From a virus, in the IMG/VR virus record IMGVR_UViG_3300030103_003226, positions 3,674 to 29,381 of that record: a stretch of 25,708 bases of DNA; one strand, written 5' to 3'. A program made the translations under genes and the position numbers. The notes beneath the pieces were generated by a model that did no database searches, had not been told where the DNA came from, and was given only the letters and a program-made list of their open reading frames with translations. Of the stretch, positions 1 to 17,379 are shown one piece after another. The first letter of the stretch is position 1; the number at the start of each line of letters is the position of its first letter.

Positions 1-420
1 AGTTTTAAAGTGGAGATCCTGAAAGGCCTACACAATTTTACGGCAACGACAGGGAACGCTTTTAAACTAGCATTATACGACAACGAAGCTACTTTAAGCA
101 AATCAACAACTGCTTTTCAACAAACTGATGAAGTAGCAAACTCAGGTACTTACTCTGAAGGCGGAGGAGCACTAACATCTGTAACACCTACCTTATCTGG
201 TGATGCGGCTGTTTGTGATTTTTCTGACATTTCATTTACAAGTGCAACTATTTCAGCACAAGCTGCTGTAATTTATAATAGTTCAACTGTATCTGGTTTG
301 ACAACCAATGCATCTGTTTGTGTACTGGATTTCGGTGCAGTTAAAACTTCTACTTCAGGAACATTTACAATTACGTTCCCTGCAGCTGAAGCAACAGCAG
401 CAATTCTAAGGATCGCATAG
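1..420 (+). CDS. Virion structural protein, 5' end outside window
   Basis: The frame is open from base 1 (it reads S-F-K before a GTG at base 10) and no ribosome binding site precedes that GTG, so the true start probably lies left of the window. At least 139 residues are present. The composition is rich in Thr, Ser, Ala and Gly with alternating beta-strand patterns, and the ending is typical of small phage decoration or tail proteins: alternating hydrophobics such as AAVIYN near the middle and an Ala-rich finish. No catalytic motif is seen. It ends 10 bases before the 586-aa repeat protein, in the same direction, and appears to be part of the exterior structural operon. A virion role is inferred from neighbours and composition; the exact part is unknown. 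Confidence 0.75.
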   Translation, partial: SFKVEILKGLHNFTATTGNAFKLALYDNEATLSKSTTAFQQTDEVANSGTYSEGGGALTSVTPTLSGDAAVCDFSDISFTSATISAQAAVIYNSSTVSGLTTNASVCVLDFGAVKTSTSGTFTITFPAAEATAAILRIA

Positions 421-430
421 GAGATAAATT

Positions 431-2191: not shown

Positions 2192-2225
2192 AAGTTTTGA
2201 CAAACTTTCAAATAATAACTAAAAC
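2191..2225 (+). promoter_or_regulatory. Candidate promoter with hairpin before the fibre gene
   Basis: A perfect TTGACA (2197-2202) is followed after 17 bases by TAAAAC (2220-2225, 4 of 6 to TATAAT). The -35 box sits inside an inverted repeat, AAAGTTT (2191-2197) with AAACTTT (2202-2208) around a TGAC loop. The repeat starts at the last base of the stop codon of the preceding gene. The hairpin has only one G-C pair per arm and no T-run follows it, so it is a poor terminator. Either element could be chance in AT-rich DNA. Confidence 0.4.
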
Positions 2226-2245
2226 TTTAAATAGGAGATAAAACA

Positions 2246-3553: not shown

Positions 3554-3555
3554 GA

Positions 3556-4590: not shown

Positions 4591-4997
4591 TGGCACATTT
4601 TGCAAAATTAGATGAAAACAATGTTGTACTATCAATAGAAGTGGTAATGGATTCAGATTGTTTAGATGAAAGTAACAATGAAAGTGAAGCTGTTGGAATT
4701 GCTTTTTTAACTGATTTAACAGGACATTCTAATTGGAAACAAACTTCTTATAATAATAATATTAGAAAAAGATATGCTCAACTTGGAGGTACCTATGATT
4801 CAACAAACAATGTTTTTATACCACCAAAACCCCATGCTTCATGGACTTTAAACAGTGATCATGATTGGGTAGCTCCTATTGATGAGCCTAGTGATGCTGG
4901 AGAAAATAAATCCTATACTTGGGACGAAACTCTTTATCAAGGTGATAACTCAAAAGGTTGGGTAGAATTTACTGCAACTGATGCAGACAAAGCTTAG
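4590..4997 (+). CDS. Conserved marine-phage virion-type protein of unknown function
   Basis: This 135-aa protein begins MAHFAKLDENNVV and carries KRYAQLGGTYDSTNN, IPPKPHASWTLN and a C-terminal YTWDETL...GWVEF stretch. I recognise this pattern from cyanophage and pelagiphage genomes, where it lies beside tail fibre genes and is usually annotated as a hypothetical or structural protein. No catalytic residues stand out. It is translationally coupled to the glycine-rich fibre through the TAATG overlap and ends the plus-strand structural operon. Its stop codon lies in the same small hairpin as the stop of the convergent minus-strand gene. A role in fibre assembly or as a fibre accessory protein is possible but not shown. 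Confidence 0.82.
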   Translation: MAHFAKLDENNVVLSIEVVMDSDCLDESNNESEAVGIAFLTDLTGHSNWKQTSYNNNIRKRYAQLGGTYDSTNNVFIPPKPHASWTLNSDHDWVAPIDEPSDAGENKSYTWDETLYQGDNSKGWVEFTATDADKA

Positions 4998-5010
4998 TTT
5001 TTTAAACTAA
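4994..5010. terminator. AT-rich hairpin shared by two convergent gene ends
   Basis: TTAGTTT (4994-5000) pairs with AAACTAA (5004-5010) around a TTT loop. It contains the TAG that ends the plus-strand 135-aa gene and the TAA that ends the minus-strand 107-aa gene. With one G-C pair it is weak, and no clear U-tract follows on the plus strand. A bidirectional terminator role is a guess. Confidence 0.3.
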
Positions 5011-5317
5011 AAATAATATCGGTATAATTATCAGGAAGAAGAACAGACTCTTGTAGAATTGCAAAAATCTTTTTATTTGTTTCGTTTTTTAACTCTGCAC
5101 TTTCTGCAGTTAATTCAATCACGTGCCTGCTCCAATCTTTAGTTATATGTTTTTCATCATTAGTAAATATTTCTATTATCCCATTAGAAACAAAAGCTGA
5201 AGATTTTGGTGCTATACATAGAGATTTTATATTCCCATAATGCACAAAACAATTTGGTAAATTTACTGGCATGTATTTAAGACTTTTTAAGTAATTTAAT
5301 AAATTTGTGTTTTTCAT
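4994..5317 (-). CDS. Hypothetical protein, 107 aa, between structural and oxygenase regions
   Basis: This minus-strand ORF starts at ATG (5317-5315) and codes for 107 residues of ordinary soluble composition (for example LPNCFVHYGNIKSL, KDWSRHVIELTAE). It is the only substantial open frame in this interval on either strand, which is the main argument that it is real. No Shine-Dalgarno sequence is evident. It converges on the 135-aa gene with a 4-base overlap and diverges from the oxygenase cluster. No domain or catalytic motif is recognised. It is the only minus-strand gene to the left of the large minus operon, so it may be a separately expressed or recently inserted gene. Confidence 0.6.
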   Translation of the reverse strand: MKNTNLLNYLKSLKYMPVNLPNCFVHYGNIKSLCIAPKSSAFVSNGIIEIFTNDEKHITKDWSRHVIELTAESAELKNETNKKIFAILQESVLLPDNYTDIIFSLKN

Positions 5318-5339
5318 AAAACGTTTTGTATGATATACT
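5311..5339 (+). promoter_or_regulatory. Extended -10 promoter for the plus-strand oxygenase cluster
   Basis: TGATATACT (5331-5339) is an extended -10 box (TGn plus TATACT, 5 of 6). A weak -35, TTTTCA (5311-5316), lies 17 bases upstream of TATACT. Transcription would start near 5346, leaving about 16 bases before the ATG at 5362. The 10-base palindrome AAAACGTTTT (5318-5327) lies in the spacer and could be an operator. The promoter position favours the ATG at 5362 over an upstream in-frame TTG at 5326, which lies upstream of the -10 box. Confidence 0.5.
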
Positions 5340-5361
5340 AAAAATACAAAAAGTAGAAATT

Positions 5362-6015
5362 ATGAGTAAAAAAATATTCTGGTTTAACAGTAAAATTCCT
5401 GATGAAATTATGTCTATTGGTATACGTGATTTATTTAAATTTAATGAAGTTATTGATGACTCAACTATTTTAGGAGGAGACGAAAACAATATTATAAATT
5501 CTGATACAAATACAAAAGAATTATGGCGTAAGTCAAAAAACTGTTGGATACCTTCTATACATTGGATGGGTGGTTTTTTATGGCATTACATAACATTAGC
5601 AAATAATCATAACTTTCATTTTGATATAACATGTATAGAAAACCATAAAATGCAATACACAGTGTATGAAAAAGGTTCTTTTTATAATTGGCATACTGAT
5701 GGAGGTACTGAATTTACAATTGAAACAAGCACAGGGAGTCAGCCCTGGGGTGATCCAAAACAAGTTATTGATGACAACATTTTAAAAAATAATAACCTTG
5801 TAAGAAAATTATCTTTTGTTGTACAATTAACTCCTTCCAATGAGTATGAAGGTGGCGAACTACAAATTGATTCAGGTGACGGAACTTTTACAGGGACAAA
5901 AGAACAAGGCTCTATAATATTTTTTGATTCTCGTACTAGACACAGAGTTACAGAAGTAACAAGTGGAGTAAGAAGAAGTTTAGTTGGATGGGTCGTTGGA
6001 CCAGAATGGAAATAA
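5362..6015 (+). CDS. 2OG-Fe(II) oxygenase, PKHD/prolyl-4-hydroxylase type
   Basis: This 217-aa protein has the classic PKHD-type core. The iron ligands H111 and D113 are in YNWHTDGG, the distal ligand H194 is in RTRHRVTEV, and R204/R205 in GVRRSLVGW is the expected 2-oxoglutarate anchor. Between them runs a sheet with YEGGELQI and GSIIFF. Enzymes of this group use O2 and 2-oxoglutarate to hydroxylate prolines or other substrates; the substrate here is unknown. It is the first gene of a five-gene plus-strand cluster behind an extended -10 promoter. The ATG at 5362 is chosen over TTG 5326 because of that promoter. It is the most canonical of the eleven oxygenase-like proteins in the window. Confidence 0.9.
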   Translation: MSKKIFWFNSKIPDEIMSIGIRDLFKFNEVIDDSTILGGDENNIINSDTNTKELWRKSKNCWIPSIHWMGGFLWHYITLANNHNFHFDITCIENHKMQYTVYEKGSFYNWHTDGGTEFTIETSTGSQPWGDPKQVIDDNILKNNNLVRKLSFVVQLTPSNEYEGGELQIDSGDGTFTGTKEQGSIIFFDSRTRHRVTEVTSGVRRSLVGWVVGPEWK

Positions 6016-6016
6016 T

Positions 6017-6700
6017 ATGAAAGATAAACATTTAAAATTACTACAAAGATATGATTTTGAAAAACCTAATTTTAACAAATTTAAAAAAGGTAATATAGAA
6101 GTAAAACACGACAAAGAAACAGGTGCTTGGTCTCTTTATAAAAATAAAAAAGAACTAAGAACAGTAGATAGATTTTTTGTTAAATGTTTTTCTTACATGG
6201 CTATGACAGATTTAGCTTTTGGTACAACAATTATTTCTGGTTTTGGTTTAGGCGACATACCTAATTGGTTAAGGCACAAGCCACAGACAAGAGAAGTTAC
6301 TATTATAGAATCTAGTTTTGAAGTAATAGATTATCATGAAAAATATAATAACGACCTATGGGGCGGTGTTAATATGATTCAAAACGAAAATTTACAATTT
6401 GGTACAAAGTGTGATGTATTACTTCTTGATCACTACTACAATAGAGAGCCATTTGAAATGGAAGTAGTTGATTTTTTAGATTTAGTTAAAAATGATATAC
6501 AAATGATAGAACATAAATTTTTATGGTTCTGGCCTTTAGAAATGTTATTGACTTATGAAACTTTACAAGGAAAGGATTTAATGGACACTTACGATAAAAT
6601 AAAACAAAAATTACCGACATTGCCTTATTTGAGAACACAGGATTTACATTACTATATGGGTATGTCTCATTTTAATTATATACCTTTAAAGAAAAAATAA
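6017..6700 (+). CDS. Class I SAM-dependent methyltransferase-like protein
   Basis: This 227-aa protein has a Rossmann-like nucleotide-binding pattern resembling spermidine synthase-type methyltransferases. A strand and glycine loop, TIISGFGLGDIPNWL, lies at 71-85. A second strand, REVTIIESSFEVIDYH, has the acidic residue E98 expected to hold the ribose, and a third strand, CDVLLLDHYYN, lies near 132-142. Methyl or aminopropyl transfer is inferred from this layout; the substrate pocket is not recognisable. The ATG at 6017 follows the stop of the oxygenase by one base; an in-frame ATG at 5984 would overlap that gene by 32 bases and lacks a better signal. It sits between oxygenases, so it may act on the same target. 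Confidence 0.65.
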   Translation: MKDKHLKLLQRYDFEKPNFNKFKKGNIEVKHDKETGAWSLYKNKKELRTVDRFFVKCFSYMAMTDLAFGTTIISGFGLGDIPNWLRHKPQTREVTIIESSFEVIDYHEKYNNDLWGGVNMIQNENLQFGTKCDVLLLDHYYNREPFEMEVVDFLDLVKNDIQMIEHKFLWFWPLEMLLTYETLQGKDLMDTYDKIKQKLPTLPYLRTQDLHYYMGMSHFNYIPLKKK

Positions 6701-6702
6701 TT

Positions 6703-7356
6703 ATGAGTAATACACAAATATTGAGACCATTTGGTCCTTCTCTTTTAAGATCCAAAATGCCTGATGATGTTTTACAGTTGTTAATTAAAAAAACTGATCA
6801 TCATTTAAACGATCCTGTTCTTTCTAAAAAATATGATTGGTCAGATCATTTAGCAGGTAACGTGCAAAAAGAAGTTAGGTTTGAAAACAATTGGCTAACA
6901 ACACTCGAAGCAAAACCTTTTTCTAATTTTATAACAGAGCAAACAGAGTTATATTTAAATGATGAATCTGTTAGTGCTTTTTTTAATGACAGAGTGAAAG
7001 AAGAAAACAAAAAACATCCTTTTAGTAAAATTAATTTAGGATCTGCTTGGATAGTTTCTCAATGGAATGGTGATTTTAATCCAGCACATATGCATGACGG
7101 TTATCTATCAGGAGTATGTTATGTAAAAATGCCAGACATGAATCCAACAATAGAAAATGAAGATCATACAAAAACCTGTTCTAAAATTGCTTTTATTTCT
7201 GGCAATCCAAATCATTTAAATTTACATCAATATGTAATTTTACCTGAACCAGGTGATTTCTTTTTATTTCCTTCTTGGTTAATACACACTGTATATCCGT
7301 TTAGAACACCTAATACAGAAAGAAGATCTGTTTCATTTAATTTATATTTGGAGTAA
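6703..7356 (+). CDS. 2OG-Fe(II) oxygenase-like protein, H-x-H type, paralogue of the 16717-17379 gene
   Basis: This 217-aa protein belongs to the putative 2OG-Fe(II) oxygenase group of the TIGR02466/PF13759 kind. The core shows FNPAHMHDGYLSGVCYV (H129, H131, possibly D132), FLFPSWLIHTVYPF (H195) and ERRSVSFNL (R207/R208). The usual H-x-D is H-x-H here, so the third iron ligand is uncertain. It shares long exact blocks with the minus-strand protein at 16717-17379 (RPFGP, LSKKYD, LAGNVQKEVR, VSQW, GDFNP, VYPFRTPN), so the two are clear paralogues. It starts two bases after the methyltransferase-like gene and ends two bases before the next one. The substrate is unknown. Confidence 0.85.
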   Translation: MSNTQILRPFGPSLLRSKMPDDVLQLLIKKTDHHLNDPVLSKKYDWSDHLAGNVQKEVRFENNWLTTLEAKPFSNFITEQTELYLNDESVSAFFNDRVKEENKKHPFSKINLGSAWIVSQWNGDFNPAHMHDGYLSGVCYVKMPDMNPTIENEDHTKTCSKIAFISGNPNHLNLHQYVILPEPGDFFLFPSWLIHTVYPFRTPNTERRSVSFNLYLE

Positions 7357-7358
7357 CA

Positions 7359-8024
7359 ATGAAAGAATTAGTACAAAAAGCGATGTTAGATAAAACAAAT
7401 TGGCCACTAGGTCAAAAAAATGAAGAACCTGTAACTCACGAAGATAAGCCTATAACTCACGAAAAAGAAATAGTTCAGTGGCTTCACGCATATAATATTG
7501 ATCTGAAAGAAGAGGACATATTTGAAATACTTAGAATGAAAAGACGTTGGTATCCAAAATATAATATGCTTAATCCTGATGCTGTTGCACATGGGGTTAG
7601 AATAATGAATCAAGTAGGACTTCTTGATATGGTTGATATATATACACAATACATAGATGGCGTGTATTTAGATTTTGATAAATGGAAAAAATATCATGAT
7701 TTAGGTTTTACAACTTTAATACCTAATGTATTGGACACACATAAACAAGTTAGAGACATTGACAATTATTTAAACAAAGAATTAGGAATATGTGCTTGTG
7801 CTAATTTTTATTTTGGTAAACCCGGCAGAAGAGCAAGTTTTAATAAACATCGTCATGATTATGACGTTGTAGTAAAACAGATATATGGAACTACAACTTG
7901 GATAGTAAAAGAACAAGAAATAACAATGGAACCACAATCTGTGCTTTTTATTCCAAAAAATACATATCATGAAGTTGTAAGCAAAAACACACCTAAACTT
8001 TCACTGACTATTAATCTTGAATAA
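7359..8024 (+). CDS. JmjC/cupin-like oxygenase
   Basis: This 221-aa protein has an N-terminal helical part (about 1-115) and a C-terminal beta-helix. The core KHRHDYDVVVKQIYGTTTW is laid out like the cupin_4/JmjC ribosomal-oxygenase signature (H-x-D, six residues on a Val, then Q-x-x-G-x-x-x-W). The spacing puts H164 and H166 at the H-x-D positions, with D167 and D169 close by. The distal ligand is H204 in IPKNTYHEVVS, and the protein ends SLTINLE. Relatives hydroxylate ribosomal proteins or other proteins; here the target is unknown. Near the N terminus an imperfect 21-base tandem repeat encodes PVTHEDK then PITHEKE. The gene overlaps the next oxygenase by 8 bases. Confidence 0.72.
   Translation: MKELVQKAMLDKTNWPLGQKNEEPVTHEDKPITHEKEIVQWLHAYNIDLKEEDIFEILRMKRRWYPKYNMLNPDAVAHGVRIMNQVGLLDMVDIYTQYIDGVYLDFDKWKKYHDLGFTTLIPNVLDTHKQVRDIDNYLNKELGICACANFYFGKPGRRASFNKHRHDYDVVVKQIYGTTTWIVKEQEITMEPQSVLFIPKNTYHEVVSKNTPKLSLTINLE
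7428..7469 (+). repeat. Imperfect 21-base tandem repeat inside the cupin-like gene
   Basis: Two 21-base units, 7428-7448 and 7449-7469, match at 16 positions and share the run TAACTCACGAA. They encode PVTHEDK and PITHEKE in frame, which suggests a local duplication that kept the reading frame. Confidence 0.6.
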
Positions 8025-8655
8025 TTTTTATACAAAAGGTTATGATGTAATTAGGTACGCAGTAACCGATGAGCTAACTAATTTTTGTTACAAGTATATT
8101 CGTAATAAAAGAAAAGTAGTTAATCATATGTTTAAATCAAATTATTTATCAAGTAATGATATGAGCTGGGGAACTTGGGAGAATGAAGAATTATTTATGG
8201 ACACTTATTGTCATTACAGTGATTTGGTTATGGAGACTTTATTAGAAAAACTCTTACCAAAAGTAATTAAAAATACTGAATTAAATTTAGTTCCTACATA
8301 TAGCTATCTTCGTATGTATAAAAATAATGATGTATTAACAAGACACAGAGACAGACCTGCTTGTGAGATATCGTGTAGTTTAAATTTGGGTGGAGATGAG
8401 TGGCCTTTATTTTTAGATCCTACTGGAGGAGAAGGAAACAAAGGTGTTCAGATTGATTTAGAGCCAGGTGATATGTTAATTTATAAAGGATGTGACTTTG
8501 AACATTGGAGAGAACCATTTACAGGGCAGGAATGCTGTCAAGTTTTTTTTCATTATAATGACATAGACGGACCTTTTTTTAAAGATAACAAGTATGACTC
8601 AAGACCTTTTTTAGGACTACCTGGTGATTTTAGAAAGTCAAGAAAACAATTATAA
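8017..8655 (+). CDS. 2OG-Fe(II) oxygenase-like protein (HRD type) with TTG start
   Basis: This 212-aa protein contains SYLRMYKNNDVLTRHRD with H110 and D112, a strand CEISCSLNLGGDEWPLFLD, then LEPGDMLIYKGCDFEHW with distal H163, and CCQVFFHYND. This set is common in phage and bacterial oxygenases annotated near the phytanoyl-CoA/prolyl hydroxylase groups. The expected 2-oxoglutarate Arg after the distal His is not obvious; a Gln stands in the corresponding strand. A stop at 8005-8007 closes the frame upstream, so the start must be at or after 8008. The only usual start codon before residue 38 is TTG at 8017, which overlaps the previous gene by 8 bases. Translation is probably coupled. The substrate is unknown. 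Confidence 0.85.
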   Translation: MNNFYTKGYDVIRYAVTDELTNFCYKYIRNKRKVVNHMFKSNYLSSNDMSWGTWENEELFMDTYCHYSDLVMETLLEKLLPKVIKNTELNLVPTYSYLRMYKNNDVLTRHRDRPACEISCSLNLGGDEWPLFLDPTGGEGNKGVQIDLEPGDMLIYKGCDFEHWREPFTGQECCQVFFHYNDIDGPFFKDNKYDSRPFLGLPGDFRKSRKQL

Positions 8656-8664
8656 AAAGATTTC

Positions 8665-8693
8665 TTGATATATTTTGCACACATGTTTAAATT
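8665..8693 (+). promoter_or_regulatory. Candidate sigma70-like promoter
   Basis: TTGATA (8665-8670, 5 of 6) and TAAATT (8688-8693, 4 of 6) are 17 bases apart in the 74-base gap before the 77-aa gene. It would give a leader of roughly 30 bases. Confidence 0.45.
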
Positions 8694-8718
8694 AGATCTC
8701 ACCCAAAAATTATAAATC

Positions 8719-8724
8719 AAGGAG
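8719..8724 (+). promoter_or_regulatory. Strong ribosome binding site
   Basis: AAGGAG lies 5 bases before the ATG at 8730. It is one of the strongest Shine-Dalgarno matches in the window and suggests that the 77-aa protein is made in quantity. Confidence 0.75.
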
Positions 8725-8729
8725 ATATT

Positions 8730-8963
8730 ATGGAAAATCAAGAAGTATTGAAGGCTATAGCTACCCTTGCTGATAAGGTGAGTCGTTACCACGAACGTTT
8801 ATTAGCAGTGGAAAGAGAAAACGAAAAATTAACAAAAGAACTACAAGAACATAGAAATGTTTCACATATACATACAATTCAAGGAAAACCTCATAACACA
8901 GATACACAGGTTATGATAACTGGTTTAGATTCTGATATGGAATGCGAAGCTTGTAGCGCTTAA
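8730..8963 (+). CDS. Small coiled-coil protein
   Basis: This 77-aa protein has residues about 5-45 forming a predicted coiled coil with heptad hydrophobics (VLKAIATLADKV, LLAVERENEKLTKEL), followed by a His/Thr-rich tail and a C-terminal CEACSA with two cysteines three residues apart. It has its own candidate promoter and a strong ribosome binding site, unlike the coupled genes before it. It converges on the end of the large minus-strand operon with a 4-base overlap. No family is recognised. A scaffold, regulator or virion role cannot be told apart from the sequence. Confidence 0.8.
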   Translation: MENQEVLKAIATLADKVSRYHERLLAVERENEKLTKELQEHRNVSHIHTIQGKPHNTDTQVMITGLDSDMECEACSA

Positions 8964-9544
8964 CTATATAAATTAAGTTGATTAATTTTTTTATTTAAAA
9001 ACTCATGCAGCTCTATATTAAATGATATGATAGTCTTACGGGCATCTGTTGCAAAACTAGGTGCTCTATGGATTATTGTACTAGGAAAAATACATAATTC
9101 TCCCTCATTAACTTCTGGTTGAATAACCTTGTTGCCATCATAAATTTCTGTAGCTGGTGAACCGTGATTCATTTCAAGATAGTAAACACCTGTATAATTT
9201 TCAGCATGTGTATGCCAGTCATGTTTATTACCTTTTGTATATTGTTGAAACCAAAGATTATGAATATGCATGTAACCAAAACCTATTTCATTAACACATT
9301 CATTTAGTGCGCCTTTAAAGTTATTGTTGAGTAATATTTGTTTCCACTCTATGTCCATGTCTTTGGACTTTTTCCAATCAGTTTTGTAAATATTATTCTC
9401 ATACATTTCACTTGTATTGGAAATACCTTCTTTCCAGTTTTCAATACAATCCAATATAGGCTGTTTGACTATATTGTGATTAACAAACTGAAGTCTTATA
9501 TAGGGTAATTTTAATTCTAGTGTCTGTTTATTCAGGCGTTTCAC
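8960..9544 (-). CDS. 2OG-Fe(II) oxygenase-like protein (H-x-H type) with GTG start
   Basis: This 194-aa protein ends the 14-gene minus-strand operon. The beta-helix core reads HDWHTHAENYTGVYYLEM (H111, H113, E115), then GELCIFPSTIIHRAPSF (H159) and ARKTIISFNIEL (R169). It belongs with the H-x-H proteins at 9766, 15606, 16717 and 6703. The start is GTG at 9544, which overlaps the end of the 83-aa gene by 17 bases; no ATG is available nearby. It converges with the coiled-coil gene. Substrate and cofactor use are unproven; a cupin-type metal site is an alternative to a true 2-oxoglutarate enzyme. Confidence 0.82.
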   Translation of the reverse strand: MKRLNKQTLELKLPYIRLQFVNHNIVKQPILDCIENWKEGISNTSEMYENNIYKTDWKKSKDMDIEWKQILLNNNFKGALNECVNEIGFGYMHIHNLWFQQYTKGNKHDWHTHAENYTGVYYLEMNHGSPATEIYDGNKVIQPEVNEGELCIFPSTIIHRAPSFATDARKTIISFNIELHEFLNKKINQLNLYS

Positions 9545-9779
9545 CCAACATATCTGCTAAAGATGGCGCAAATACTTTTACGTCTCTTTTAATTTTTTCA
9601 GCAGTTGTAGAAGTTCCAGGATTATCAACATCAGCTTGAGCTTCTGCTTCTGAGTTATACTCAGCACCTGTATCTACATGAGTGATTGTTGTTTCAGTTT
9701 TTACTTTGTAGTGTGGAATCTTTCTTCCATCTTCAGTAGTAATGTGACCTAATAATTCAGCAGGTTCAACTATCGGCAT
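9528..9779 (-). CDS. Conserved hypothetical phage protein, 83 aa
   Basis: This 83-aa acidic protein has N-terminal blocks (LGHITTEDGRKIPHYKV, ITHVDTGAEY) that I recognise as recurrent in marine phage genomes without a known role. The middle is an acidic spacer (SEAEAQADVDNPGTST), and the C terminus (VKVFAPSLADMLGE) is likely helical. It starts at ATG with GGAG 8 bases upstream, overlaps the preceding oxygenase by 14 bases, and overlaps the following one by 17 bases. It lies between two oxygenases. Whether it is a partner or an unrelated virion component is unknown. Confidence 0.75.
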   Translation of the reverse strand: MPIVEPAELLGHITTEDGRKIPHYKVKTETTITHVDTGAEYNSEAEAQADVDNPGTSTTAEKIKRDVKVFAPSLADMLGETPE

Positions 9780-10359
9780 CTTCGTTTCTCCAATTTATGT
9801 TAAAACTGATGATAACTCTATCTTCATCAGAATTATTTGTTTGTACTTCATGTTGTAACCATGATGGGAAAAAAATCAAGGAATTTTCTACAGGTTCCCA
9901 TTGTACGCTGTGAGCGAGGTGTATAGAGGCTTTATCTGTTTTCGGGGGTGATAGTACCTCTGACTGTGGTTTAGGCTCTAGAAACACAATATTTCCACAC
10001 TTTTTTGGAGCTTTTAAATAAAATACACCAGATAAATAGTTATAAGGATGTGTATGTATGTTGTTTCGTGATCCTGGTGGATTTATCATACCCCACATGC
10101 CCGTCATCTCTGGAACATAATTATGTTTAACATCTAGGTGATTAAAACAATCTTTAGCATGTTTTAATATATCACCGACAAGTGGACGAAACTTTTTTAT
10201 ATTGTATATTTCATCATTGCTGTGCCAACCACCAACATTGGACCGTGGCATACCCATTTCATCTTTTGCTTTCAATTGATAAATCCTATCAACGAGATGT
10301 TCGTGGCCTTTTAAGTCTAGTGAAAATACAGGTGTAATAAATAAAGAATGTAGATTCAT
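9766..10359 (-). CDS. 2OG-Fe(II) oxygenase-like protein (TIGR02466/PF13759 kind)
   Basis: This 197-aa protein is the clearest TIGR02466-like member: NVGGWHSNDE near 41-50, NNIHTHPYNYLSGVFYL (H102, H104), CGNIVFLEP, then IFFPSWLQHEVQ (H170) and EDRVIISFNINW (R181). In this family the His positions bind the metal and the Arg is taken to anchor 2-oxoglutarate; biochemistry for most members is lacking. The start is chosen at ATG 10359 because AGGAGG lies four bases upstream and the ATG overlaps the previous stop (ATGA); a start 33 bases further upstream has no such support. It is a coupled member of the minus-strand operon. The substrate is unknown. Confidence 0.88.
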   Translation of the reverse strand: MNLHSLFITPVFSLDLKGHEHLVDRIYQLKAKDEMGMPRSNVGGWHSNDEIYNIKKFRPLVGDILKHAKDCFNHLDVKHNYVPEMTGMWGMINPPGSRNNIHTHPYNYLSGVFYLKAPKKCGNIVFLEPKPQSEVLSPPKTDKASIHLAHSVQWEPVENSLIFFPSWLQHEVQTNNSDEDRVIISFNINWRNEDADS

Positions 10360-10925
10360 TGTGCCTCCTCTGTTAAATCTATATTTACGCACATTCTGTA
10401 TTTTGATAACACAGGATGTGAACCAGTGTGTAAGATATTACCATTAAAAAATAAAAGTCTACCTGCTTTAGGACTTACTTTTTCTTTGATTGTCATATCT
10501 TTATTAAATAATATTGTATCACCGTCACTATCGTTTACGTAATATAGTGCAACAGTGTGTTCTAAATCAAAATCTTTATGTGGTGTATTATGAAAATTGT
10601 TTTTATTATTTGTAAATTGTGTCTGTAAGTTTGCTTTGCTTCTAAGTATATTAAATTTTTTATTAAATCTGTTTTTAATGTTTTTAAATATATGATCGAC
10701 AATAACTTTACCTTGATCAGATACAACGATAGTTTTGTTTTCTTCTCTTTTGTGAATATCATGAACAAACAGTAAATATTCTTTTAAGTGTTTTAGGTTA
10801 TATTTCTTACTAACTTCTGGCGTACATGTTAATAATGATCCGCTCAAGGACCACGGACATCTTAAAAAAGATTTGTGAATTTCATCAACATCTCTCTTAT
10901 CTAATAAATCGTCAATAACAATCAG
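10356..10925 (-). CDS. 2OG-Fe(II) oxygenase-like protein with probable CTG start
   Basis: The catalytic half has HNTPHKDFDLEHTVALYYV (H116 and D118), a strand DGDTILFN, then RLLFFNGNILHTGSH (H166) and KYRMCVNIDL (R177), numbered from a CTG start at 10925. The first usual start codon in frame is TTG at 10847, but the frame stays open upstream to a stop at 10964. The 26 residues before that TTG (IVIDDLLDKRDVDEI, HKSFLRCPWSLSG) look like the normal N-terminal strand and helix of this fold. CTG at 10925 lies one base after the previous stop and 10 bases after AAAGGA, so I take it as the start, giving 189 aa. ATT at 10922, or a frameshift from the upstream gene, remain possible. Confidence 0.78.
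   Translation of the reverse strand: MIVIDDLLDKRDVDEIHKSFLRCPWSLSGSLLTCTPEVSKKYNLKHLKEYLLFVHDIHKREENKTIVVSDQGKVIVDHIFKNIKNRFNKKFNILRSKANLQTQFTNNKNNFHNTPHKDFDLEHTVALYYVNDSDGDTILFNKDMTIKEKVSPKAGRLLFFNGNILHTGSHPVLSKYRMCVNIDLTEEAQ
10364..10369 (-). promoter_or_regulatory. Ribosome binding site deciding the start at 10359
   Basis: Perfect AGGAGG on the minus strand, four bases before ATG at 10359. It fixes the start of the TIGR02466-like oxygenase and overlaps the end of the preceding gene. Confidence 0.8.
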
Positions 10926-10926
10926 T

Positions 10927-11289
10927 CTAAAGTTGTCCTTTAGTGATCTCCAGAAAACTTGCTATAATATGCACCTGATTGGCAGCGTTAGCTTGAACTT
11001 TAAGAATATCACTTTCTTGCAAAACTAAAGGTTGTGTCAATAGTTCTGTGGTTGTTTTTGTAGCAATGCTCTTTTCTTTAAACACTTCAAAGGTTGAAGA
11101 TCCTCTAACAACTTCAACATCGACTAAAGTTGTTGCACCAGAATCATTGCAAACTAAAAGAGATTTTACTACATCTGTAGTAGGCGGAACTGGTGGTGTC
11201 GCACCAGGGTTTGCCGTAGGAACTGTTAAAACAGTTGTTAAATTGGTTGTGGTTACATCCACCATTGCGCTTTTAAAAGTATTAGCCAA
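10927..11289 (-). CDS. Virion-type protein, 120 aa, TTG start
   Basis: This 120-aa Thr/Val-rich beta protein begins (M)ANTFKSAMVDVTTTNLTTV and has a Pro-rich linker (PGATPPVPPTT) near residues 28-38. The pattern resembles small phage head or tail proteins in which strands such as KSLLVCND and VHIIASFLEI form a beta-sandwich. The start is TTG at 11289, with GGAGG nine bases upstream on the minus strand (11303-11299). It overlaps the 55-aa gene by 8 bases. Position next to the 614-aa tail accessory protein supports a virion role. The exact part is unknown. Confidence 0.75.
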   Translation of the reverse strand: MANTFKSAMVDVTTTNLTTVLTVPTANPGATPPVPPTTDVVKSLLVCNDSGATTLVDVEVVRGSSTFEVFKEKSIATKTTTELLTQPLVLQESDILKVQANAANQVHIIASFLEITKGQL

Positions 11290-11449
11290 GGAAAAAAGCC
11301 TCCGACTCCGACTCGTCTTTTAAATCTTGTTGGTAGTTTGTATTAAGTAAAAAAATTATTTGATCTAACAAACTTACCATTTGATCAAATTGATTAGGAT
11401 CATATTCTGGAGTTGAGTTTGGTAATCTTGTTATAGTAATTTTAGCCAT
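11282..11449 (-). CDS. Small conserved-type protein, 55 aa
   Basis: An ORF of 55 residues fills the space between the 614-aa protein and the 120-aa protein. Its ATG overlaps the upstream stop by one base (TAATG), and its stop overlaps the downstream TTG start. The sequence MAKITITRLPNSTPEYDPNQ, followed by a helix rich in Leu/Ile (VSLLDQIIFLLNTNY) and an acidic end (KDESESEAFFLG), looks like a real protein: a short strand, a Pro-Asn turn and an amphipathic helix. I recall similar short ORFs beside tail genes in marine phages. It may be a virion or assembly component. Its small size means gene finders could miss it. Confidence 0.75.
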   Translation of the reverse strand: MAKITITRLPNSTPEYDPNQFDQMVSLLDQIIFLLNTNYQQDLKDESESEAFFLG

Positions 11450-13293
11450 TATCTTCTTCCATCTGGTCTAAGTTGTAATTTAGTAGAACCAAGTCTCCAA
11501 GCTGTATCATCAACAGTATTTGTTTGATATTTAATCTTAACTGCTCTTCCTCTACCTCTTACATCAATTTTTTCTGTAGTGCTAGAAATAGTTCCGGAGG
11601 TAGTAATAGTATCTGCTGATTGAGGATATTGTTCTAATGTTAATGTAGCAGTCATAGTATTGTTTAAATTATCAAAGTCTGGAACAAGTTTACTTACTGA
11701 CATAAGTTCATCACCATCTGCTATTTCAACAGAACCTGATGTTAAAAAAGCTGTAATAGCTGTTCCATCTGCTTGATTATTACCTGTTTCGTGTTCATAA
11801 ACATATGAAGCACCTGCAGATAACCCAAGTATTGTGGAGTTGTTAGCAGACAAGCTAGAGTCATATTCAGTAGCTATAGGCAACTCAAACACATAGGCTC
11901 CTAACCAAGTAGTTCTTGAAAGAGTTGTAGTATACCAAGTGTTTTCCAAATAATTGTAAACAACAGCTCTATCTACTTGTGTAGCGTTTGCTGATGGATA
12001 ATACCAAATTATTTCATTAAAAGCAGAATTTATACCACAGGCTATATCAGCTTTGTTTGTGTAACTTAAATCATCAAATACAAAATCTTGTACTGAACAT
12101 GGCATTTTTTTGACAACACCATCATACATATAGAAAGCATTGTCTGACATCCAATATGAACGACCATTTATTTCTATTGCTGCATGTTGAGCTATTAGAC
12201 CACAGTTAGCTCCTAGTTGTCTAAGACCAAAAGTAAAAGGTGTACCAACAAACTGAACACCATGAAGAGAAGTATCTGTCCAAACAAGAATTTGACCAGA
12301 TGATTTAACAGCACCTACTATTCTGGAACCGTCTGATATACGTAATGAACCAGCTTCGTTTGTTGCTGTAGGTGTATAATCTGTAGCATCTTCTCTGTCA
12401 GAGAATCTAAATAATAAATCATCTTGAGTAGCACTATTTCCTACAGTTGTCTCTGTGCCAAATATCATTAAGTGTCGTGTATCTGTTGACACTAAACTAA
12501 ATCTTGATGCGGTAGGAGAATTAGATAATGTTGTTGCTCTGTTACTTGTACCACCAGACGTGTCCCAAATAAAAGTACCACCATTTAAAACAGTAGCAAT
12601 TAAATCTTCACCAAAATTATCTAAAGACCAGTTTCTTGCATCTACTACAACGCTTGAAGAAGATCTTGGTGTATCCCAAGTGTTTAAATTCCAAGTTAAA
12701 GTTCCCCAACCGTATCCATATGTAGATGTAGAAGGACCAACATTAATTTGATACTTAGCATTACCGGATCCACCTCCACCTGATGTTGAGCCAGATGCAG
12801 CGCTACTATGAGTTACTGTGTAAACACTAGAAGATACTACTGTGGTAACTTCGAACTCGTTGTTCATATCTAATCCATCGATAGTAGAAAAAGAATCAAA
12901 CGTAACAAAATCGCCTTCTTGTGCGCCGTGAGCTGCGTCTTCTACTGAAACTGTTGTGGTACCGTTTGTTGTAAAAGGATTTGTTAAAGCTTCTTCTTCT
13001 CTAATAGGTGTAATGTCGTAAACAGCACCTTCTGAATATAAGTAAAGTTTTCTATCTGTTCCTAAAGCAAGATACCTGGTTCCATCTAAACCAATCCAGC
13101 TATGCGTATCACGGACCACGCCCACAATAGTTCTATTAGGATTTGGTAAATATTTCCAGCCTTGCCATCTCTCAGGTTTACCATAGTGAAAACGAACAAA
13201 ATCAGAGTCAACATACTTACGTTGATCACCCGCTGAGTAAGCAGTATCTTGTTTGTCTATACCTGGTTGGAATTTTAAATCGACTAATTTCAT
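11449..13293 (-). CDS. Tail accessory / DNA stabilisation-like virion protein
   Basis: This 614-aa beta-rich protein has the look of the podovirus tail hub accessory proteins (P22 gp10-like, beta-propeller): an N-terminal block with YVDSDFVRFHYGKPERWQGW, then repeated strand patterns such as RHLMIFG, ILVWTDTSLHGVQFVG, INGRSYWMSDNAFYMYDG and VVYNYLENTWYTT. The inserted stretch at about 105-185, with a Gly/Ser linker (GSTSGGGGSG), is less conserved in style. The gp10 comparison is at the level of layout and should be tested by structure prediction. It starts 16 bases after the glycosyltransferase stop with no clear ribosome binding site. It is the largest gene of the minus operon and lies amid modification genes. 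Confidence 0.8.
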   Translation of the reverse strand: MKLVDLKFQPGIDKQDTAYSAGDQRKYVDSDFVRFHYGKPERWQGWKYLPNPNRTIVGVVRDTHSWIGLDGTRYLALGTDRKLYLYSEGAVYDITPIREEEALTNPFTTNGTTTVSVEDAAHGAQEGDFVTFDSFSTIDGLDMNNEFEVTTVVSSSVYTVTHSSAASGSTSGGGGSGNAKYQINVGPSTSTYGYGWGTLTWNLNTWDTPRSSSSVVVDARNWSLDNFGEDLIATVLNGGTFIWDTSGGTSNRATTLSNSPTASRFSLVSTDTRHLMIFGTETTVGNSATQDDLLFRFSDREDATDYTPTATNEAGSLRISDGSRIVGAVKSSGQILVWTDTSLHGVQFVGTPFTFGLRQLGANCGLIAQHAAIEINGRSYWMSDNAFYMYDGVVKKMPCSVQDFVFDDLSYTNKADIACGINSAFNEIIWYYPSANATQVDRAVVYNYLENTWYTTTLSRTTWLGAYVFELPIATEYDSSLSANNSTILGLSAGASYVYEHETGNNQADGTAITAFLTSGSVEIADGDELMSVSKLVPDFDNLNNTMTATLTLEQYPQSADTITTSGTISSTTEKIDVRGRGRAVKIKYQTNTVDDTAWRLGSTKLQLRPDGRR

Positions 13294-13309
13294 GTCGGAG
13301 TATACTAAA

Positions 13310-14092
13310 TTATTTATTGTTTTGTGGCAAGAATTGAGTGGATACTCTTCCTCTGAAGTTATAATTACCAGAATGTATTAAGCTACTAGCTATATCTGCA
13401 TATACTTTACCACCTATTTTCTGCCATAAACGACAAAAAGCATAATCTTCAGACAAGTATCTTTTAGTTTCTGGTTCAATCATTGTATCAAAAAAAGCAT
13501 AATTCCAATCAGAAGTGCCGTGATAACCAAATGTTTTATCGTGAGGATCACCTAAATGCTGATCAGATTTAAATCTTAAATTAGGATAAGCCTTTGCCAT
13601 CTTTTCAAATACTTGTTTTTTAATCAACATATATCCAGTTGCTCCATCCAAAACTTCTATAAATCCTTTTTCTACTTTTACTTTGTTAGGATTAGTAACG
13701 TTTAAGTTATATTGTAAAGATGCTGAGTGAAGTTCATCTTCAGATATATTAGGGTTGTCTTTGACTCTTCTTATAGTTTTTGTCCAATCAATAGTTTTGC
13801 GTGGGTACACTCCTGTAACAACTTCTTTATCAAGATCCAACATTCTAAATATTGATTCAGGGTCAAAAGATATATCAGCGTCAATAAACATTAAGTGAGT
13901 ATAATCTCCGTCCATAAACAATTGAACTAAAGTATTACGTGCTCTTGTTATTAAAGACTCATTACCTATCGTACCAAATTGTAATTCTATTTTTTTTGTT
14001 GCAGCCAAAGCTGCTAATTGAAGGCAACTTTTAAAATAGTCTGCTGTAATTAAACCACCATAACAAGGTGTACCTATAAATAGTTTTGTCAT
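13310..14092 (-). CDS. GT-A fold glycosyltransferase
   Basis: This 260-aa protein begins TKLFIGTPCYGGLITADYF and has the metal-binding DxD in THLMFIDADISF (D71, D73), followed by RMLDLDKEVVTGVYPRK. A later acidic block, RYLSEDYAFCRLW, fits the catalytic-base region of family 2-like glycosyltransferases. It lacks membrane segments. Such enzymes are common in marine phages and transfer a sugar from a nucleotide-sugar donor; donor and acceptor are unknown here. It overlaps the preceding gene by an ATGA junction and precedes the tail accessory gene. In the same operon as seven oxygenase-like genes, it could glycosylate hydroxylated residues, which is inference. Confidence 0.85.
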   Translation of the reverse strand: MTKLFIGTPCYGGLITADYFKSCLQLAALAATKKIELQFGTIGNESLITRARNTLVQLFMDGDYTHLMFIDADISFDPESIFRMLDLDKEVVTGVYPRKTIDWTKTIRRVKDNPNISEDELHSASLQYNLNVTNPNKVKVEKGFIEVLDGATGYMLIKKQVFEKMAKAYPNLRFKSDQHLGDPHDKTFGYHGTSDWNYAFFDTMIEPETKRYLSEDYAFCRLWQKIGGKVYADIASSLIHSGNYNFRGRVSTQFLPQNNK

Positions 14093-14832
14093 TTATAATT
14101 TTTCTTTGTCCATACTTTAGTTTTGTATGTGTCAAATAATGTAGAAAACCATTTCCAACTCCAAACATGTATTTTGGCTCTTAAATTTTTATCTTTGATA
14201 ACTTTCATTTTCCAATCATCTCGTTTGAATGGAAAAACTAAAGCAATAGGTGTACCTTTTTTAATTGTCTTTGATGTAGTCTCATGTAAATTCCAATCTG
14301 TTAAGAAAAATGGTAAGTTAATATAAGCTTCATAATTATCTGTATCTACGATACCTGTAATTAATCTTGTATCTTTTTTTTCTGTGTTAAAAGGAGATGT
14401 AAAAATACAGCTATAACCTGGTGGAGTTTTAATAAGCCAAGGATTTAAAAACTTAAAAGATAAAGGAATTTCATTAGGATGAACCATAGATAAACTTATT
14501 TGGTCTTGAGTGTGATTTTGAACACCAACATTAAAATCTTTCATCCACTGATCAGTAGTGTCATCTATATCTAATCTCGCTGGTATTATTTCTATTTCAA
14601 AAGTTTTTGCTTCTAAGTCTTCTTTCTTTCTAAACATAAAATCACAAGGAGATAGTATTGCGTATCCCATAGTAATGCTGTCTAGTACAGGTTGGCATTT
14701 TTTTACAGTCACTGTAAAATCATCAAGATGTAAAACACTTTTTAATTTTTTAAACCAATCAGGTGTAACTTTTTTAACAGGAACTGGGTGTGGAATTAAA
14801 TCAGCAATCTGACTTATAAATTTTATTTTCAT
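14089..14832 (-). CDS. DUF6065-like protein of unknown function
   Basis: This 247-aa protein has blocks that match what I remember of DUF6065: DLIPHPVPVKKVTPDWFKKL near the N terminus, KKCQPVLDSITMGYAILSPCD, NPWLIKTPPGYSCIFTSPFN, GIVDTDNYEAYINLPFFLTDW and KGTPIALVFPFKRDDW. The layout (Pro-Trp-Phe start, hydrophobic beta core, then PFKRD) suggests a beta-rich enzyme-like or ligand-binding fold, possibly related to cupins. No activity is established. It overlaps both neighbours by ATGA junctions, with the glycosyltransferase downstream and an oxygenase upstream, so it is probably expressed with them in fixed proportion and may act in the same pathway. Confidence 0.72.
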   Translation of the reverse strand: MKIKFISQIADLIPHPVPVKKVTPDWFKKLKSVLHLDDFTVTVKKCQPVLDSITMGYAILSPCDFMFRKKEDLEAKTFEIEIIPARLDIDDTTDQWMKDFNVGVQNHTQDQISLSMVHPNEIPLSFKFLNPWLIKTPPGYSCIFTSPFNTEKKDTRLITGIVDTDNYEAYINLPFFLTDWNLHETTSKTIKKGTPIALVFPFKRDDWKMKVIKDKNLRAKIHVWSWKWFSTLFDTYKTKVWTKKNYK

Positions 14833-15341
14833 TCTCCCTCTCTATAAAAAATATTAAGTGTATATCGTGGTGAGCTGTCCCCAAAAGATTGAAGATCTCC
14901 GTGTTTAACTTTAGATCCATTAAAAAATAAAGCTCTATTTTCCACGAAACCTATATGACTCGATAACTCTTCATTGGATAAAAATCCTGTGCCATTGTTT
15001 AACAAAGGTTCTCCTTTAACAAAAAGAAGAAAATTAGCACACCCTCCTTTCTGATCATCAATATGAAACAAAGGTTTTTCAGTATTTAATCTTAAATGAG
15101 AATGAAGAGAGATAGGAACTAAATTTCTATGTGGAAAAAAATACTGTTTGATTAATTTTAATAACGGATCATTTTTAAATGATTCAGGAAAAGTGAAACG
15201 TTTGCCGTATAAATTACCTTCATTATCCCATATTTCTTTATGATTAGTATTTAATATGTTGTCTTGTAGTGATTTTAATGTTTCTTTTTCAAGAAAGTTG
15301 TCAACATACATGACAAACTCTGTATTTTTATTGTGTTGCAT
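14829..15341 (-). CDS. 2OG-Fe(II) oxygenase-like protein (HID type)
   Basis: This 170-aa protein is short for the fold. It has an N-terminal strand and helix (FVMYVDNFLEKETLKSL), a middle with LVPISLHSHLRLN, then PLFHIDDQKGG with H93 and D95, FLLFVKGEP, ENRALFFNGSKVKHGD with distal H147, and PRYTLNIFY with R159. All four expected residues are present. The ATG at 15341 follows AGGTGG six to eight bases upstream and overlaps the 93-aa gene by 14 bases; the stop overlaps the DUF6065-like start. The closest recognisable type is the small DUF6445-like oxygenases, an identification of low certainty. The substrate is unknown. Confidence 0.82.
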   Translation of the reverse strand: MQHNKNTEFVMYVDNFLEKETLKSLQDNILNTNHKEIWDNEGNLYGKRFTFPESFKNDPLLKLIKQYFFPHRNLVPISLHSHLRLNTEKPLFHIDDQKGGCANFLLFVKGEPLLNNGTGFLSNEELSSHIGFVENRALFFNGSKVKHGDLQSFGDSSPRYTLNIFYREGE

Positions 15342-15609
15342 AATCCACCTTTAAGTATTCTATTTTCTTTAACCAATCTTTAGGGATAGCAATAGCACCA
15401 CCACCTGTAATATCATCTTTATCTCTGCTATACGAACGCATAATAATTATTTTTTCTTTACCATTATGTACCATCCACCCTACTTCTTGGCACACGGCCA
15501 ACGGAGCATTAATAACATCTTTAATATCAAGCCACCCTGTCTCTGTATCACGAGCATCTATCCACGTTACACGGACCATAGGGATTTCATCAATATTAAA
15601 TTCTTTCAT
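15328..15609 (-). CDS. Conserved hypothetical protein, 93 aa
   Basis: This 93-aa protein has strands and conserved-looking blocks: VRVTWIDARDTETGWLDI, CQEVGWMVHNGKEKIIIMRSYS and GGGAIAIPKDWLKKIEYL. The pattern (W-D-A-x-D-x-x-x-G-W, then V-G-W, then strand, then I-P-x-x-W) recurs in small proteins of marine phages, where no function is known. It may be a small beta-barrel. It is coupled by ATGA to the oxygenase at 15606-16277 and overlaps the next one by 14 bases. A DNA- or RNA-binding role is only a guess and I do not assign it. Confidence 0.75.
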   Translation of the reverse strand: MKEFNIDEIPMVRVTWIDARDTETGWLDIKDVINAPLAVCQEVGWMVHNGKEKIIIMRSYSRDKDDITGGGAIAIPKDWLKKIEYLKVDYATQ

Positions 15610-16277
15610 AATTTCATGTAATTGTAATTATCATACTTTGAGTGCGTGTTACTTATAATATCAAAAGCTATCGTAATTCTATTGTCTGATAAAACTTCGT
15701 CTGTATAATGTGGTAAATTAGAATTAAACAATGTGATTTTACCGACTTCATTTTTACTAGAATAAATTTCTTTTGTTTCAAACCATTTAAAAGGGTTAAT
15801 ATAATGAGTATAAGTATTATCAACATCAACACATATATTACCTGATAATAAACAATCATTTGAGGTATTGTGAGCATGTAGTTCAATTTTTTGACCTTTT
15901 GTCATTACATTTGCCCAACATTGAATTTTTAAATTAAGAGGTTTTTCTTCTAATATTTTTTCGTAAATCTCGTTAATATTGTTTACAATACTGTTTTTAA
16001 TTTTTTGTATATTTTTATCTTCCCAGTCTAATACGTTGTAATAATTAAATCTTGAAGTCAAACTGTCATTACCTAAACCTGTATCGCCATCAGTATTACT
16101 TTTAGGTGAATCTTCTAATATTGTTTTTTCTTTTGATTTTATTATGTTTGAAACAACATCAAAATTTACATCATTTATAATATTTTCAAATATGTAAAAA
16201 TTATAATCAACATCAAAAGGTGTCTTTTTAAATCCACTTTTCATTATTATTAAATCTACTACGTTAAAGTTTTCCAT
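15606..16277 (-). CDS. 2OG-Fe(II) oxygenase-like protein (H-x-H type, divergent)
   Basis: This 223-aa protein has a beta-helix core KGQKIELHAHNTSN (H134, H136), then LLSGNICVDVDN, a strand GKITLFNSNLPHYTDE (H190) and NRITIAFDI (R200). It is more divergent than the other H-x-H members: the usual SGVYY strand is SGNICVD. The ATG at 16277 overlaps the upstream gene by 19 bases. An alternative ATG at 16244 (MKSGFKKTPFDV) would leave a 14-base gap. Neither has a clear ribosome binding site, so the start is open. An Asn/Asp-rich segment lies at about 60-95. The substrate is unknown. Confidence 0.8.
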   Translation of the reverse strand: MENFNVVDLIIMKSGFKKTPFDVDYNFYIFENIINDVNFDVVSNIIKSKEKTILEDSPKSNTDGDTGLGNDSLTSRFNYYNVLDWEDKNIQKIKNSIVNNINEIYEKILEEKPLNLKIQCWANVMTKGQKIELHAHNTSNDCLLSGNICVDVDNTYTHYINPFKWFETKEIYSSKNEVGKITLFNSNLPHYTDEVLSDNRITIAFDIISNTHSKYDNYNYMKL

Positions 16278-16720
16278 GCTATTGTGTGCCTGTTTTTGTT
16301 AGATAAATTTATGTTAGCGTGATGTATAATTGCAGCGTTAAAAACGATTAGTCTATTTTTTTTATAAGGAATTGACTCTTTGCCCTCATTAATAAAAAGT
16401 TCACCTTTCCACTCTTCTTTCCAATCGTCAGGTAAAAAAAGTAAAGTTGTATCACCATCATCTTCATGAGGCTTACCTCCTGCATGGGGAGGATAAAGGT
16501 TTACATATATTCTTAATAACTCTTTAGTTTTTGTCATTTTTTTTTCATTAAATATATCTAGAAGAAAATTGTGACTAAGACGATCTGTAGTAACACAATT
16601 AAAAAAACCAACATTATCAGAGAATGTGCCATGAACATTCCATGTCATTTTTGTTAGTTCAACTTGAACAAACTTTAGTAAATCATCACTTAAAACATTA
16701 TCGTATACGTCAATGTTCAT
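16259..16720 (-). CDS. 2OG-Fe(II) oxygenase-like protein (HED type)
   Basis: This 153-aa compact oxygenase has an N-terminal strand and helix (NIDVYDNVLSDDLLKFVQ), then YPPHAGGKPHEDDGDTTLLF with H85 and D87, WKGELFINEG, RLIVFNAAIIHHANIN (H133 or H134) and NRHTIAWKTL with R144. The pattern is that of small prolyl-4-hydroxylase/SM-20-like proteins. The ATG forms an ATGA overlap with the upstream paralogous oxygenase gene. It is the shortest of the eleven, close to a minimal beta-helix. The substrate is unknown. Confidence 0.85.
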   Translation of the reverse strand: MNIDVYDNVLSDDLLKFVQVELTKMTWNVHGTFSDNVGFFNCVTTDRLSHNFLLDIFNEKKMTKTKELLRIYVNLYPPHAGGKPHEDDGDTTLLFLPDDWKEEWKGELFINEGKESIPYKKNRLIVFNAAIIHHANINLSNKNRHTIAWKTLT

Positions 16721-17379
16721 TCGTTGATAGGATCCTTTTTTGTTAAATGTAAATTAAAAGATACAGATCTTCTTTCTTCATTAGGGGTTCTGAATGGATA
16801 TACACCATGGGATAGCCAAGATGGAAATAAGTATATTGCACCTATTTCAGGAGTAGCTTGATGCTTATGTCCACTGAAGGTAGCAGCCTGACCGGCATGC
16901 CAAATAATATCACCTACACACGGATAATGATCTTCTTTTTTGTATTCATCTTTAAGACCAGGAGGAACTCTTAAATAAATTACACCTGACAATTCACCTT
17001 GATGTATATGAAAAGGATTAAAGTCGCCAGCCCACTGGCTTACGACCCACATAGATTCTATTACCATTTTACCAACAAACGCTGGAGATATAGTATCACT
17101 AGCAGGAGGAATAGATATGTATTGTTTAACTATTTCACCTAAAGCATTTATTAATGGGTTAAATGTTTTACTTGCTAAATCTTCTTGAGGATAACGTACC
17201 TCTTTTTGTACATTACCAGCTAAATTCATTGAATGATCATATTTTTTAGATAATTTTTCATCATCTAATAATTCTGTTGCCCTATCATCTAATATTTTAA
17301 TTAGATCTAAAGGCAATTTACCTTGTAATATTGTTGGACCAAATGGTCTAATAGCATGGAAATCTACTTCAGTTGACAT
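16717..17379 (-). CDS. 2OG-Fe(II) oxygenase-like protein (H-x-H type), first gene of the minus operon
   Basis: This 220-aa protein is a close paralogue of the plus-strand protein at 6703-7356. The core shows GDFNPFHIHQGELSGVIYL (H124, H126, E129), YLFPSWLSHGVYPF (H191) and ERRSVSFNLHL (R203/R204). Its H-I-H-x-x-E layout also resembles a cupin metal motif. The start is taken at ATG 17379 with AAAGGAAA at 17390-17383; an ATG 42 bases further upstream has no such site. It differs from its paralogue mainly in a longer middle loop (about 90-105) and a DIIWHAGQA segment before the distal His. As the first gene after the divergent promoter region it may be expressed most strongly in the operon. Confidence 0.88.
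   Translation of the reverse strand: MSTEVDFHAIRPFGPTILQGKLPLDLIKILDDRATELLDDEKLSKKYDHSMNLAGNVQKEVRYPQEDLASKTFNPLINALGEIVKQYISIPPASDTISPAFVGKMVIESMWVVSQWAGDFNPFHIHQGELSGVIYLRVPPGLKDEYKKEDHYPCVGDIIWHAGQAATFSGHKHQATPEIGAIYLFPSWLSHGVYPFRTPNEERRSVSFNLHLTKKDPINE

Follow-up and report, generated by a model that had tools for sequence, protein, structure and literature searches.

The oxygenase genes of a marine podovirus lineage track the type of its tail-tip protein

Few "auxiliary metabolic genes" (AMGs) of marine phages are as common as those for 2-oxoglutarate-Fe(II) (2OG-Fe(II)) oxygenases. The literature that we searched gave no substrate for any of these phage enzymes. We analysed a stretch of 25,708 nucleotides from the virus record IMGVR_UViG_3300030103_003226 (bases 3674-29381 of a 29,381-base record; hereafter the window), in which eleven open reading frames (ORFs) of oxygenase or cupin type lie within 12 kb; genes are called here by their lower coordinate in the window. 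Across related loci, the oxygenase set of a phage goes with the kind of its tail-tip protein, which suggests that these enzymes chemically finish the tail tip. Oxygenase clusters themselves have already been reported; the pairing of tip type and oxygenases across podoviruses and myoviruses, together with the corrected annotation of phrog_2954 given below, was not found in the literature searched, which left out most subscription journals. The association points to a specific candidate substrate, one within reach of mass spectrometry in cultured phages.

Results

Related loci were gathered from IMG/VR by means of the virion protein encoded at 11449-13293, that is, independently of the oxygenases. 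As the gene order of 57 loci showed, the arm lying between the tail genes and this virion protein goes with tail-tip type. All but one of the 32 loci with a collar-type tip have oxygenase cluster OX2, the exception being HTVC027P, and it is missing from all 14 with a Gly-rich tip (31/32 versus 0/14, p=6e-11). The difference persists after dereplication of the tips at 80% identity (10/11 versus 0/10, p=3e-5) or at 70% (4/5 versus 0/8, p=0.007). The opposite distribution was found for OX4 (phrog_2954, the family of 8017), present in 10 of the 14 Gly-rich loci, and for the PKHD-type subfamily of 5362, split off by score (at least 201 bits versus at most 97) and present in all 14; neither occurs in any of the 32 collar loci. 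Over all loci, the 2x2 table of PKHD-type gene against Gly-rich ORF reads 19/5/5/137 (p=4e-16), and in the five loci that have a PKHD-type gene but no Gly-rich ORF this gene stands near a contig end. A third tip type goes with zero or one oxygenase in the tail-side arm, the left arm being as usual.

The link between tip and oxygenases is kept on diverged backbones, in HTVC023P and psg01 at 42-43% anchor identity and, for the collar type, in locus L068, and other accessory genes are exchanged around the persisting pairing. The PKHD/Gly-rich link is also seen in HTVC033P and in the myoviruses HTVC008M, EXVC030M, S-SM2, Bellamy, ACG-2014b and Sf-CH11. A whole-genome test covered ten isolates, mostly myoviruses: these seven, Syn9, S-SCSM1 and HTVC023P, the last of which also belonged to the training set of the hidden Markov model (HMM) used. 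Nine of 13 PKHD-type genes lie at most 6 kb from a Gly-rich ORF, versus 2.0 expected (p ~5e-5), and the same holds for 31 of 103 non-PKHD oxygenases of these isolates (Fisher p=0.010 versus PKHD), both p-values being guides only; the PKHD-type and phrog_2954 genes stand together near a Gly-rich ORF in all eight genomes that have the pair.

Within the window, plus-strand tail genes (1-4997) lead into a plus-strand block (5362-8655). The minus-strand operon 17421-8960 combines seven oxygenase-like genes with those for the virion protein, a glycosyltransferase-like protein and a DUF6065 protein, and from 17512 virion genes resume on the plus strand. Oxygenase genes are interleaved or overlapping with virion genes of the same strand:

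3556-4590, plus: Gly-rich tail-tip protein (109 Gly in 344 residues; phrog_2295, 5e-41), co-occurring with the 5362-type enzyme and its proposed substrate
4590-4997, plus: short conserved protein associated with the tail and accompanying the Gly-rich tip
5362-6015, plus: 2OG-Fe(II) oxygenase of the PKHD-type subfamily linked to Gly-rich tips (PF13640, 2e-14; NCBIfam Fe2+-dependent dioxygenase/PKHD, 3e-16)
5984-6700, plus: methyltransferase-like gene (phrog_15480 only, 0.0025), travelling with 5362, 6703 and 7359 and found in the same loci as 5362
6703-7356, plus: 2OG-Fe(II) oxygenase (PF13759, 8.5e-20)
7359-8024, plus: JmjC_2/cupin-like metal protein with H-x-H...H (PF08007, 31.3 bits, cutoff 22; phrog_29157, 1.5e-53)
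8017-8655, plus: phrog_2954 protein (named "ferrochelatase") with a prolyl-4-hydroxylase-like predicted fold
8960-9544, minus: 2OG-Fe(II) oxygenase (PF13759, 2e-9)
9766-10359, minus: core 2OG-Fe(II) oxygenase (PF13759, 5e-24; TIGR02466)
10356-10925, minus: 2OG-Fe(II) oxygenase with matches to PF13640 and phrog_274, start codon uncertain
11449-13293, minus: virion "stabilization" protein, the survey anchor (phrog_3287, 5e-81)
13310-14092, minus: glycosyltransferase-like protein (phrog_1574, 4e-43; weak Anp1)
14089-14832, minus: DUF6065 protein (PF19541, 1.6e-8)
14829-15341, minus: core 2OG-Fe(II) oxygenase by predicted fold (phrog_274, named "DNA endonuclease V")
15606-16277, minus: accessory 2OG-Fe(II) oxygenase (PF13759, 6.5e-9), found in one other locus
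16259-16720, minus: 2OG-Fe(II) oxygenase (PF13640; phrog_274, 3e-18)
16717-17379, minus: core 2OG-Fe(II) oxygenase (PF13759, 2e-18)

All eleven oxygenase/cupin-type ORFs that a sequence-only reading had placed in these 12 kb are present: ten resemble 2OG-Fe(II) oxygenases in sequence or in predicted fold, and 7359 is JmjC/cupin-like. The Pfam gathering cutoff is passed by five proteins for PF13759 (6703, 8960, 9766, 15606 and 16717), by two for PF13640 (5362 and 10356) and by 7359 for PF08007; 16259 falls slightly under that of PF13640 (24.8 bits versus 27), and 9766 alone among the eleven passes that of TIGR02466 (134 versus 62.5 bits). The proteins 8017 and 14829 have no Pfam match and are matched by phrog_2954 (2e-46) and phrog_274 (1e-8), respectively; these two were modelled with AlphaFold from alignments of relatives, the other nine being assigned by profile. 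Iterative HMMs join nine of the eleven in one superfamily, 7359 and 8017 remaining outside. The 5362 protein is a relative, not a member, of the PKHD-type hydroxylase YbiX/PiuC: Fe2+-dioxygenase models match it at 3e-16, the best of them at 59.6 bits, far under the equivalog cutoff of 143.

The metal triad read from the letters, H-x-D or H-x-H with a distal His, holds up; a loose H-x-D/E(/H)...H pattern fits 512 of 519 oxygenase-like ORFs, and H125 and D127 (alignment numbering) of the 5362 protein are among the residues invariant in 23 relatives. The Arg said to follow in most is replaced by Gln in 8017 and missing in 7359, which has H-x-H rather than H-x-D and covers the PF08007 domain only partly. 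As to the gene said to start at 10925, the ORF ending at 10356 is present, but CTG stands at 10925, with no ATG, GTG or TTG near the expected start; this lies right after the stop of the upstream gene, and CTG or another unusual start is possible.

The AlphaFold model of the 14829 protein (predicted local distance difference test, pLDDT, 91.6) is beta-rich and matches fungal 2OG oxygenases, HIF prolyl hydroxylase 2 (PHD2) and bacterial prolyl-4-hydroxylase (P4H) with E ~1e-6 and template-modelling scores (TM) of ~0.6-0.7, while that of the 8017 protein (pLDDT 86.5) finds its best PDB match in Pseudomonas putida P4H (7e-10, TM ~0.6), followed by PHD2 and AlkB. Both models have the double-stranded beta-helix fold. 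The HxD...H...R motif is invariant in 30 relatives of 14829, as are the HxD...H metal residues in the phrog_2954 family. Because the profile-profile comparison of the 8017 and 14829 families was not significant, their common fold rests on structure; the predicted folds resemble collagen, HIF and EF-Tu prolyl hydroxylases with TM ~0.5-0.7 and an identity of 11-19%.

Two misleading names deserve comment. Pfam searches gave no ferrochelatase match for 27 members of phrog_2954, nor for the proteins that bear this name in S-PM2 and Syn9, and the predicted fold is P4H-like; the ferrochelatase identity was rejected. The family has the name alone in common with that enzyme, and judging from the model it is most likely an oxygenase-fold protein. 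DNA endonuclease V was likewise rejected as the identity of phrog_274, there being no such Pfam match and the beta-rich 14829 model having 2OG-oxygenase matches. One report interprets an oxygenase and "ferrochelatase" pair as an iron-related partnership (PMC9599517), and in another phrog2954 figures as a ferrochelatase AMG with seasonal enrichment (PMC11561400). By the predicted fold, the partner in the published pelagiphage work is probably another oxygenase, a reading that takes away a main support for the iron/heme interpretation. In Syn9 (NC_008296; gp46 and gp51-gp54) and in PHROGs, oxygenase-fold proteins are filed as "minor coat protein", "DNA endonuclease V" and "ferrochelatase", and since PHROG names mislabel such proteins, oxygenases are undercounted in name-based AMG surveys.

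The density of these genes, at first taken as exceptional, proved routine in the lineage. Oxygenase-like genes per 12 kb of flank number 8.2 where the anchor is at least 75% identical, 6.9 at 50-75% and 0.94 below 50%, and a search with PF13759 alone returned 3-9 match rows for every one of 13 virus records of the lineage, against none for six outgroup records; density is therefore a property of the lineage. It is also known in kind from pelagiphages, S-SCSM1 and Syn9. As documented in PMC9599517, HTVC023P-type pelagiphages are podoviruses with several non-orthologous 2OG genes beside a "ferrochelatase" in the same tail region; the paper treats the partner as ferrochelatase and, in its accessible part, draws no link from oxygenases to tail-tip type. 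Unlike those isolates, with 1-5 genes at this place, loci of the window's lineage carry up to 11. Cyanophage S-SCSM1 has 24 2OG genes (PMC9602691), and Syn9 has nine HMM-recognised members in gp45-gp60, under 8 kb. PF13640, PF13759, phrog_274, phrog_2954 and JmjC_2 are common to S-SCSM1, this Syn9 region and the window; the first two phages are myoviruses, unlike the window, and the S-SCSM1 genes are scattered genome-wide.

Three core genes occur with every tail-tip type, with orthologs of at least 50% identity in 88 loci for 9766 (partly since it was itself a query), 36 for 16717 and 31 for 14829; for most remaining oxygenase genes such orthologs are found in 1-6 loci. The 519 oxygenase-like ORFs fall into 122 clusters at 50% identity. 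Recent tandem duplication was rejected: among 240 genes of oxygenase-rich loci, three have a paralog at 60% identity or more, and for 235 the nearest gene lies in another locus and not among the paralogs, which argues for exchange. The ratio of nonsynonymous to synonymous substitution rates (dN/dS) is ~0.1-0.15 for the core genes (0.106 for 9766, over 83 pairs) versus 0.10 for the virion protein, so that purifying selection is as strong on the core oxygenases as on the virion gene; accessory genes give 0.09-0.27, from 2-3 pairs each.

Discussion

The dedicated modification system proposed from the letters stands in part: the set is interleaved with virion genes, divides into core and accessory members, has a dN/dS of ~0.1-0.27 and follows tip type, but its density is not exceptional. 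We propose that the block is a modular "oxygenase island" common to a whole lineage of AT-rich marine podoviruses, placed with late virion genes and presumably expressed with them, in which a tip-independent core (9766, 14829 and 16717) is combined with an accessory arm that varies with the tail-tip gene. Using 2OG, O2 and Fe(II), the accessory enzymes would hydroxylate residues of the adjacent tail-tip proteins at virion assembly, with possible effects on adsorption or stability. The PKHD-type enzyme (5362) with phrog_2954 (8017) would modify the Gly-rich tip protein (3556-4590), in which Ser, Ala, Thr and Asn are abundant and Pro, Asp and Lys also occur, and the OX2/8/10/11 set would modify the collar-type tip. 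We give this proposal an even chance. In its favour, the genes are arranged together with virion genes, the set depends on tip type, the closest solved folds include protein prolyl hydroxylases and dN/dS is low. A broader version, to which we would grant somewhat less than that, is that marine phages carry interchangeable hydroxylase sets, each matched to one class of tail-tip adhesin and hydroxylating the tips before release, the Gly-rich tip with PKHD/phrog_2954 being a counterpart of collagen-type maturation common to podoviruses and myoviruses.

Several points weigh against hydroxylation of the tail tip. Among the fold relatives there are small-molecule oxygenases and AlkB as well, and phrog_2954 carries Gln in place of the canonical 2OG-binding Arg. 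In the isolate test, both the distance limit (6 kb) and the threshold for Gly (40%) were fixed once the data had been seen. The 24 annotated oxygenases of S-SCSM1 lie no closer to fibre genes than expected from rotation (fraction 0.37-0.52); a general fibre proximity of all phage oxygenases failed in this comparison, and the family at large is therefore not fibre-bound. Moreover, the tip gene adjoins the accessory arm, so that recombination of one block could yield the same association.

Such hitch-hiking is the main rival: tip and oxygenase genes would merely share a recombination hot-spot, and the oxygenases would act on host surface glycans, lipids or small molecules, in superinfection exclusion or metabolism. 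The physical adjacency of the genes speaks for it, as do the glycosyltransferase-like and DUF6065 genes of the same operon and the location of other S-SCSM1 oxygenases in glycan, tRNA, replication and photosynthesis regions. Block transfer is countered only by the persistence of the pairing on diverged backbones, at ~43% anchor identity and across podoviruses and myoviruses, with other accessory genes exchanged; we regard linkage alone as unlikely. By analogy with RoxA/JmjC ribosomal oxygenases and with the bacterial P4H complexed with EF-Tu, the enzymes might instead have host proteins of translation or regulation as their hydroxylation targets. The match of 7359 to JmjC_2 would fit, and the top structural match of 8017 is the very P. 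putida P4H solved with EF-Tu, but if the host target were fixed, no dependence on tail-tip type would be expected, and we hold this alternative to be less probable still.

It has been proposed for cyanophages that many 2OG oxygenases lower 2-oxoglutarate and thereby alter host nitrogen signalling (PMC3037559). The number of genes in our lineage agrees with this published hypothesis, which nonetheless leaves both their sequence diversity (the 122 clusters) and the tip dependence unexplained and appears highly improbable here. Modification of DNA, a further branch of the sequence-only reading, found no support. Weak TET-like and AlkB structure matches and PHROG names such as "DNA endonuclease V" might suggest DNA or nucleotide hypermodification, but in fold, small-molecule and prolyl hydroxylases match best, the genes are ordered with virion genes and no thymidine-modification partner genes were seen in the window, and we consider it the least credible of these explanations.

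Other observations

The window's relatives are podoviruses. Relatives of its virion "stabilization" protein at ~34-45% identity occur in DSL-LC04, 023Pt_psg01, the Pelagibacter phages HTVC023P and HTVC027P, and roseophages. A related 27,967-base phage contig (AG-910-K03 contig 11; L186/L191), with an anchor 79% identical and five oxygenases, comes from an AT-rich alphaproteobacterial single-cell genome whose sampled host contigs have 26-30% GC; the cell may have been infected, which hints at a SAR11-like host, a co-sorted virus being also possible. The database-phage relatives of the DUF6065 protein are almost only haloarchaeal tailed viruses, yet the gene is common in this marine lineage; as a functional marker it was dropped as uninformative. 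A literature search on the FlmC family found no paper.

G+C content is 28-31% in the oxygenase blocks (5000-9000 and 14000-17000) versus 38-43% in the left tail genes (1-5000), and in a scan for promoters and terminators promoters were not in excess. For three right-hand genes (19442-25553), tblastn against ~160 related loci, many flanks of which may stop short of them, gave no match over 60% of the gene's length, whereas their neighbours are matched. Finally, oxygenase genes of myoviruses repeatedly have a tryptophan halogenase gene beside them or nearby (Syn9 gp41-gp42, HTVC008M gp079 and Sf-CH11_94), possibly another protein- or metabolite-tailoring enzyme.

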